Source: Rhizobiales bacterium Ga0077556 | GTDB taxonomy: Bacteria > Pseudomonadota > Alphaproteobacteria > Rhizobiales > Phreatobacteraceae | Direction of reading: 5' to 3' | Assembly: GCA_001464235.1 (NCBI GenBank) | Contig: LNFH01000203.1 | Span: 1-46,126, forward strand | DNA length: 46,126 nucleotides | Shown: piece by piece, positions 292 to 10,850 of the stretch | How positions within the stretch are numbered: the first letter of the stretch is position 1 | Layout of the letters: the number at the start of each line of letters is the position of its first letter | Position numbers and translations under genes: made by a program | Notes under the pieces: generated by a model | What the model saw: the letters and a program-made list of their open reading frames with translations, nothing else | Databases searched by the model: none | Told to the model about the DNA's origin: nothing

Positions 292-1333
292 CCGCTCGGT
301 CGGCCCGGACCAGATCATCGGCATCCTCGGCGGCGGGCAGCTCGGCCGCATGCTGGCGCTCGCCGGCGCGCGGCTCGGCCTGCCCTTCGACGTGGTCCGG
401 CGCATCACCGAGGCCGACTATTCCGACGAGGAGGCGCTGGCGCGCTTCGCCGGCGACGTCGACGTCGTCACCTACGAGTTCGAGAACGTGCCCGCCCGCG
501 CCGCCGACTTCCTGGCGAGCCGCCTTCCGGTGCGGCCGGGACCCATGGCCCTCACGGTCTCGCAGGACCGCGTCCGGGAGAAGACCTTCGCCCGGGAGTG
601 CGGCCTCGCCGTTCCCGACTTCGCGCCCATCGATTCGGTGGACGACCTCGCCCGCGCCCTGGAGACGATCGGCCGCCCCGCCGTTCTGAAGACGCGACGC
701 TTCGGCTATGACGGCAAGGGCCAGGTGGTGATCCGCGCCGGAGACGATCCGGCCCGTGCGATGGCGGCGATCGGCCACCAGCCGGCCATTCTCGAGGCCT
801 TCGTCTCGTTCGAGAAGGAGATTTCCGTCCTCGTCGTGCGCGGCGTCGACGGTGAAATCCGCCACTACGATCCGGTGGAGAACGTCCATCGCGGCGGCAT
901 CCTCAGGACGTCGACGGTTCCGGCCTCGATCGACGTGTCGCTCGGCGCGCGCGCCGCGCTCACCGGAACGGTCCTCGCCGAGAAGCTCGACTATGTGGGG
1001 GTCCTCGCGGTCGAGCTCTTCGTGACCCGCGACGGCCAGCTGCTGCTCAACGAGATGGCGCCGCGCGTCCACAATTCCGGTCACTGGACGGAAGCCGCCT
1101 GCCATTGTTCCCAGTTCGAGAACCACATGCGTGCCGTCGCCGGCCTGCCGCTCGGCTCGACATCGCGCCATTCCGACGCGGTGATGCAGAACCTCATCGG
1201 CAACGGCGTCGACAAATGGCGTAGGCTCGCGGCCGAGGACGACAGCGTGCTGCACCTCTACGGCAAGCGTGACCAGCGCGAGGGCCGCAAGATGGGGCAT
1301 GTCACGCGGCTTTCGCCGCTCAGCCGAGACTGA
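278..1333 (+). CDS. purK: PurK, N5-carboxyaminoimidazole ribonucleotide synthase
   Basis: ATP-grasp enzyme that makes N5-CAIR from AIR, bicarbonate and ATP, feeding PurE. 351 residues, normal for the family. N-terminal nucleotide-fold motif GGGQLGRM at about residues 18-25, ATP-grasp core containing [12 protein letters not shown], and the catalytic block [15 protein letters not shown] followed by FENHMRAV, all typical of PurK. I chose GTG at 278 because GGAG sits seven bases before it; an earlier GTG at 242 would overlap purE by 50 bases and adds residues unlike the family. The 3' end overlaps the convergent transporter gene by 14 bases. Confidence 0.96.
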
Positions 1334-5061: not shown

Positions 5062-5684
5062 ATGCCCAGCACCGTTCTCTTCGACCTCGACGGGACCCTC
5101 ACCGATCCCGCGCCCGGAATCATCGGCTCGTTCCGCAAGGCGCTCGCCGATCTCGGCCATGAGCCGCCGCCCTATGAGACGCTCGGCTGGATCATCGGAC
5201 CGGCCCTGCGGCTGTCCTTTCCGAAAGTGATGGGGGAGGGGGCGGACGCGGAGGCCGCCGTCGAGCGCTACCGGGTCCACTATCGCGCCGGCGGCATGTA
5301 CGACCTCACCCTCTATCCCGGCATGATGGACGCCGTCACCGCGATCGGCACGGCGTCGGAGCGCATGTTCGTCTGCACGGCCAAGCCCGAGCCCTATGCG
5401 ATCCCGATCGTCGAGCGGTTCGGCTACGCGCCGCATTTCCAGCGCGTCTATGGCGCGGCGCTCGACGGCAGCCTCGAATCGCGGAACAGGGCATCGATCC
5501 CGCCGATACCGTGATGATCGGCGACCGGATGCACGACATCCACGCGGCGCAGCGGCACGGCATCGCCTCGATCGGCGTCGCCTGGGGCTATGGCGGCGTG
5601 GTGGAACTCAGGGAAGCCGGCGCGACGGCGATATGCCAGCGGCCGCAGGACCTGCCGGAGATGGTGGCGGCGCTCCTGGCGTAA
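5062..5684 (+). pseudogene. HAD-superfamily phosphatase (Gph-like), broken by an internal out-of-frame deletion
   Basis: Phosphoglycolate phosphatase-like HAD hydrolase. From ATG 5062 the reading frame shows the nucleophile motif FDLDGT (7-12, Asp8/Asp10), the cap domain and motif II VCTAKPEP, then derails after GALDGSLESR at about 5483 and stops at 5514. From 5484 a different frame continues the family sequence for 66 residues: EQGIDPADTVMIGDRMHD with the motif IV aspartates, GVAWGYG, and stop TAA at 5682. About a dozen residues, including the expected motif III lysine, are missing, so roughly 37 or 40 bases (1 modulo 3) appear deleted, or misassembled. As given, no active enzyme can be made. 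Confidence 0.8.
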
Positions 5685-5705
5685 CCCCGGGAGGGTCGGC
5701 CTCCC

Positions 5706-9524: not shown

Positions 9525-10227
9525 ATGGCCGGGCCACGCTATGGGCGCGCGCTGGTGAAGGTGTCCGGCGAGGCGCTGGCGGGCGACCAGGAGTTCGGGT
9601 TCGACGCGGCGACGATGAAGACCATCGCCGAGGACCTCATCGCCGCTGCCAAGGCCGGCACCGGCATCGCGGTCGTGGTCGGCGGCGGCAACATCTTCCG
9701 GGGCCGGCAGATCGCCGGGATCGGCCTCAGCCGGGTCGACGCCGACGCCATCGGGCGGCTCGCGACGGTTATGAACGCCATCGCGCTGGCGGGCCAGATC
9801 AACGCTCTCGGCCATCCCGCCGTCGCCCTCTCGGCCGAGCCGGTCCCGGAGGCGCTCGACGTCTACACGGTGCGCCATGCGCTCGCCCATCTCGCAGCGG
9901 GCAAGATCGTGGTCCTCGGCGGCGGCATCGGCGTGCCGCTGCTGACCACCGACACCACGGCCACCATGCGCGCCGTGGAGCTCGGCTGCGACGTCGTGCT
10001 GAAGGGCACCAACGTCGACGGCATCTATTCGGCCGATCCGAAGCGCGATCCGACCGCCGTGCGTTTCGACCGGCTCACCGCCGACGAGGCGATCGCCCGC
10101 GATCTCAAGGTGATGGACACGGCCGCCTTCGCGCTTGCCCGGGAGAACCGTCTTCCGATAATCGTGTTCTGGCGCCGTCGCGTCGGTGCTGGCGGGCGAG
10201 GGCCGATGCACCGTGGTCACCGTCTGA
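9525..10227 (+). pseudogene. pyrH: UMP kinase PyrH, frameshifted near the C-terminus by an apparent 14-base deletion
   Basis: Amino-acid-kinase-fold enzyme phosphorylating UMP to UDP. From ATG 9525 (GGGGGA upstream) come VKVSGEAL (11-18), [10 protein letters not shown] (51-60), [15 protein letters not shown] (159-173) and [14 protein letters not shown], ending at residue 215. Then the frame changes: the expected tail [18 protein letters not shown] and stop TGA 10225 lie in the next frame from 10171. Fourteen missing bases, coding for about SIHEP, would restore a 238-residue protein, the family length. As written, the frame runs on without a stop into frr (10850). PyrH is normally essential, so assembly error must be excluded. 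The UMP-site motif is also unusual ([11 protein letters not shown]). Confidence 0.82.
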
Positions 10228-10283
10228 CCGCGCCAGTGACCTTCCCGCGGATCCCTCCGCGCAATCTCCAAGAGGCGTACCCC

Positions 10284-10850
10284 ATGGCCGCGTCCCCGAC
10301 CTTCGATCTTGGCGACCTCACGCGTCGCATGCAGAGCTCGATCGCATCCTTCAAACACGAACTGGGCACGCTGCGCACCGGCCGCGCCTCGCCGAACCTC
10401 CTGGACCCGATCCAGGTCGAGGCCTATGGCCAGTCGATGCACATCAACCAGGTCGCGACCGTGAGCGTGCCCGAGCCGCGCCTGCTCTCCGTCCAGGTCT
10501 GGGACCGCGCCATGGTCGGTCCGGTGGAGAAGGCGATCCGCGAGTCGAGCCTCGGCCTCAATCCGCAGACCGAGGGCCAGGTCATCCGCCTGCGCATTCC
10601 CGAACTGACCCAGGACCGCCGCAAGGACATGGTCAAGGTCGCGCACAAATATGCCGAGGGCGCGCGCGTGGCGATCCGCCACATCCGCCGCGACGGGATG
10701 GACATCCTGAAGGCCAAGGAGAAGGATCACTCCATGAGCGAGGACGAGAACGTCCGCGCCGCCGATCAGGTTCAGAAAGAAACCGACAAGCACATCGCCG
10801 AGATCGACCAGCTGCTCGCGCAGAAGGAAAAAGAGATCATGACGGTCTGA
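10284..10850 (+). CDS. frr: Ribosome recycling factor
   Basis: 188 residues, family length, splits post-termination ribosomes together with EF-G. Seen are [27 protein letters not shown] (starting about residue 13; the conserved TGRAS), the domain with [11 protein letters not shown] and the C-terminal helix with RRKDMVK and VAIRHIRRD, ending in a charged helix. ATG 10284 follows pyrH by 56 bases. Because of the pyrH deletion this gene is in the same open frame as pyrH, so automatic callers may give one 441-residue fusion from 9525; homology supports the start at 10284. Confidence 0.96.

Follow-up and report, generated by a model that had tools for sequence, protein, structure and literature searches.

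As set out by Cooley and Wright (2024, PMC11017572), assembly errors can make intact genes look broken, giving rise to false pseudogenes. Literature searches on pyrH-frr fusions with a frameshift, and on deletions or misassemblies introduced when metagenome-assembled genomes are built, returned no paper. In the 11 other Phreatobacter genomes that made up our genus sample, PyrH (UMP kinase) is a separate protein of 238 residues and its gene is followed by frr, the gene for ribosome recycling factor (RRF). A wider sample, covering the genus and wider relatives, comprised 109 pyrH loci, 105 of them distinct. PyrH ends 22-33 residues after position 215 in every one of these loci, and frr lies at most 1 kb downstream in 107. 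The locus described here is found in a contig of 46,126 nucleotides (the whole stretch of DNA analysed, hereafter the window) from a draft genome of Phreatobacter sp. As assembled, its pyrH reading frame runs without interruption into frr. That two essential genes should truly be fused would, if confirmed, be surprising.

The break in pyrH

The features of the window are collected in Table 1. As the initial annotation had proposed, pyrH has 14 bases fewer than its counterpart in all 11 genus relatives, the gap falling between positions 10170 and 10171. Alignment gave the same gap against the closed genome G007, the draft G003 and the 330-contig assembly G009. Two further predictions were borne out. 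The rest of the PyrH tail and its stop codon lie in the next frame (10171-10227), and the frame that starts at 9525 meets no stop before that of frr at 10850, leaving 441 codons open. The lost residues, on the other hand, had been given as about SIHEP; they read SLDAP in all 11 relatives, each of which has the 14 bases.

Table 1. Coordinates of the features of the window. G007, G003 and G009 are the relatives named in the text.
Feature	Position	Strand	Evidence
purK, 36 bases missing (multiple of three)	383..384	+	-36 vs G007, G003, G009
HAD-type phosphatase gene (5062-5684), 28 bases missing	5477..5478	+	-28 vs G007, G003, G009
pyrH (UMP kinase) residues 1-215, in frame to the break, ends PIIVF	9525..10169	+	TIGR02075, 239.6 bits
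Junction: 14 bases absent that 11/11 genus relatives have	10170..10171	+	alignment
Rest of PyrH tail (18 residues + stop), out of frame, unchanged	10171..10227	+	codon comparison with four relatives
56-base spacer from stop of PyrH tail to frr, with AAGAGG motif	10228..10283	+	sequence
frr (ribosome recycling factor), intact, own ATG, 188 residues	10284..10850	+	TIGR00496, 211.7 bits; PF01765, 223 bits

The displaced tail is identical in all 18 residues to that of each of the four relatives with which it was compared, its codons showing 0-5 synonymous differences and no others. Relative to G007, pyrH shows 45 synonymous and 12 other codon differences, and frr 27 and 2, respectively. The start of frr lies 53-60 bases past the pyrH stop codon in the 11 genus relatives and 56 bases past the stop of the tail in the window; the AAGAGG sequence in this spacer we take to be a candidate ribosome-binding-like motif. 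In profile searches, frr passed the TIGR00496 cut-off of 149.1 bits at full length from its own start (profile positions 3-176 of 176). PyrH remained below the curated cut-off of TIGR02075 (243.9 bits), whether the 215-residue part or the whole open frame (237.8 bits) was scored; the intact pyrH of G007 reached 261.3 bits, and the shortfall fits the cut-off tail of the window protein.

The open frame itself finds a simple explanation in base composition. The G+C content of the window is 70%, and the frr frame is open upstream past PyrH residue 215 in 6 of the 11 genus relatives and closed in the other 5, pyrH stopping in its own frame. Such GC-rich DNA keeps the frr frame free of stops upstream, and the fused frame is no more than a by-product of this: the 14-base loss happens to put pyrH into an open frr frame.

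The pyrH gene is essential in bacteria, and loss of PyrH is expected to be lethal. A search of the genome with the PyrH protein matched one place, the window locus. The AA_kinase family (PF00696) had four matches, corresponding to argB, lysC, proB and the pyrH of the window, while a DNA search with pyrH-frr yielded, besides its own locus, just two short weak matches. Thus, the assumption that pyrH is present in single copy held in this draft of 4.4 Mb and 483 contigs, which is 89.47% complete, a further copy in the missing part being possible. In the 11 genus relatives, the PyrH protein has a single strong match per genome.

Short private deletions across the draft

Four contigs of the draft, namely the window (C203), C428, C383 and the first 20,000 bases of C400, were compared with G007 and G003, about 154 kb being aligned to the former and 138 kb to the latter. 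Only gaps private to one genome were counted. The last three came from a set of 16 contigs; a fourth of that set, C350, was left aside since it matched G007 only in part. An artefact should appear as an excess of like errors, blind to the reading frame and rare in relatives, and this is what was found: private deletions of at least 10 bases numbered 16 in the draft as opposed to 1 in G007 and 2 in G003. All 16 measure 14-38 bases and they occur in all four contigs. Twelve break the frame; the other four have a length divisible by three, a share close to the third that chance would give. The private gaps of the two references are 13-14 bases long; the one in G007 falls outside conserved ORFs and the two in G003 inside ORFs picked by script. 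Setting the cut at 8 bases or more gave 15 deletions in the draft, one deletion and one insertion in G007, and one deletion and three insertions in G003. With other reference pairs, the deletion counts were 16 for the draft, 1 for G007 and 3 for G003 (two of the 3 adjacent). Two net changes, of -32 bases at C428:15562 and of +16 at window position 5688, just after the phosphatase stop codon, enter the clustered count only and are not among the 16; nor are three smaller private deletions of 5, 6 and 6 bases, which fall below the cut. No private deletion of 7-13 bases was seen in the four contigs of the draft, which hints at one software cause.

Other kinds of private change were not raised in the draft. 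Insertions of at least 5 bases numbered 7, compared to 4 in G007 and 25 in G003; one- or two-base frame changes, in a hand count with intergenic regions included, numbered 10, 13 and 31, respectively. Over the window region, G009 has no such private deletion despite being fragmented into 330 contigs, so that the fragmented state of a draft is not enough by itself to produce them.

Besides the gap in pyrH, two of the 16 deletions fall in the window, in purK and the HAD-type phosphatase gene (Table 1), and we take them to be artefacts of one kind with it; the other 13 lie in contigs C428, C383 and C400. Genes were named only where a family model confirmed them, in G007, since the ORF picked at some of the C428 sites may be in the wrong frame. 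The genes so identified in these three contigs include serC, with 14 bases missing; the acetylornithine deacetylase gene argE, which lacks 23 and 15 bases within the one gene; an mlrC-type gene, from which 38 bases are missing twice; and the gene for an ABC-type permease, with 31 bases missing. For the proteins at C400:4661 and C428:59795, no NCBIfam family gave a match at 1e-20. Judging from the codon comparisons of pyrH and frr, the genome otherwise differs from G007 by mostly synonymous changes, and frame-blind losses in such genes would not be expected of a living lineage. Contig C383 also contains, at about 11380-11610 of L131, some 200 bases with matches to numerous sites of G007 and G003 in both orientations. 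They probably belong to a family of repeats interspersed in genomes of the genus, the halves of the repeat being partly inverted.

Readings of the apparent fusion

The initial annotation had put forward an assembly error, a programmed slip or a real fusion as possible causes of the open frame. Conserved genes of the same draft have lost 14-38 bases at many private sites, which speaks for an assembly error. Since similar short losses occur in other genes of this draft, such an error almost certainly underlies the apparent fusion protein. From the comparisons made here, we would put at about 96% the probability that the 14-base loss in pyrH arose in the draft assembly. Most likely, this Phreatobacter sp. 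encodes a normal UMP kinase of 238 residues, with frr downstream as a gene of its own. Pieces of 14-38 bases would have been lost here and there during assembly, probably when the ends of contigs were set directly against each other or a short gap was joined up and the bases within it left out, and the source reads would be predicted to contain the 14 bases. The four contigs contain no runs of N, and no microhomology at the junctions was evident by eye. Hairpins were considered as a cause of the gaps and rejected: folding energy at the 16 sites was like that of random stretches (mean z 0.07), the pyrH site being the lowest, that is the most structured, of the 16 (z -2.24).

Were the deletion real and present in the strain, it could give rise to a working 441-residue PyrH-RRF fusion, with RRF possibly made from its own start as well. 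The continuous open frame and the recognition of both the PyrH and RRF domains by profile search in the conceptual fusion are consistent with this reading, but the fusion would replace the last 23 residues of an essential enzyme found once in the genome, and the tail left out of frame shows no decay. Moreover, the compared contigs of the draft hold 15 other like gaps, and no PyrH-RRF fusion was found among the 109 loci (105 distinct), none of which has the same continuous frame with a conserved new tail. We thus regard a real fusion as very unlikely. Still less likely is a genome truly decaying by many short deletions, or a contig that mixes strains of a population carrying such deletions. Either would account for the presence of deletions in all four compared contigs, yet the one- and two-base frame changes are no more frequent in the draft than in G007 or G003, and the genes struck include pyrH and serC, pyrH and frr being otherwise mostly synonymous relative to G007.

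That a strain-specific deletion yields a translated PyrH-RRF protein, in which the UMP kinase still works without its native last 23 residues while tethered to RRF, seems to us extremely unlikely. Least probable of all is a programmed slip or hop that restores the PyrH tail during translation. The conserved tail does lie one frame away, and shifting by +1 after TTC would bring it back into frame; however, such a shift cannot supply the lost codons and would still leave out the five SLDAP residues present in all 11 genus relatives, none of which needs a shift to read its plain, uninterrupted frame.

Significance and comparison with known systems

The pyrH-frr fusion is almost certainly no real feature of this organism, and its value is that of a quality warning. 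Extrapolating from 16 deletions in 138-154 kb, we estimate that false deletions of this short kind may number about 450-500 in the draft of 4.4 Mb. "Fusions", "truncations" and "pseudogenes" taken from it are not trustworthy unless set beside a relative. Compared with an ordinary pyrH-frr pair, the window is alike in gene order and spacing and differs solely by the 14 missing bases. The errors described in PMC11017572 are frameshifts and internal stops in many public assemblies, whereas a single draft is concerned here and the errors are clean losses of 14-38 bases.
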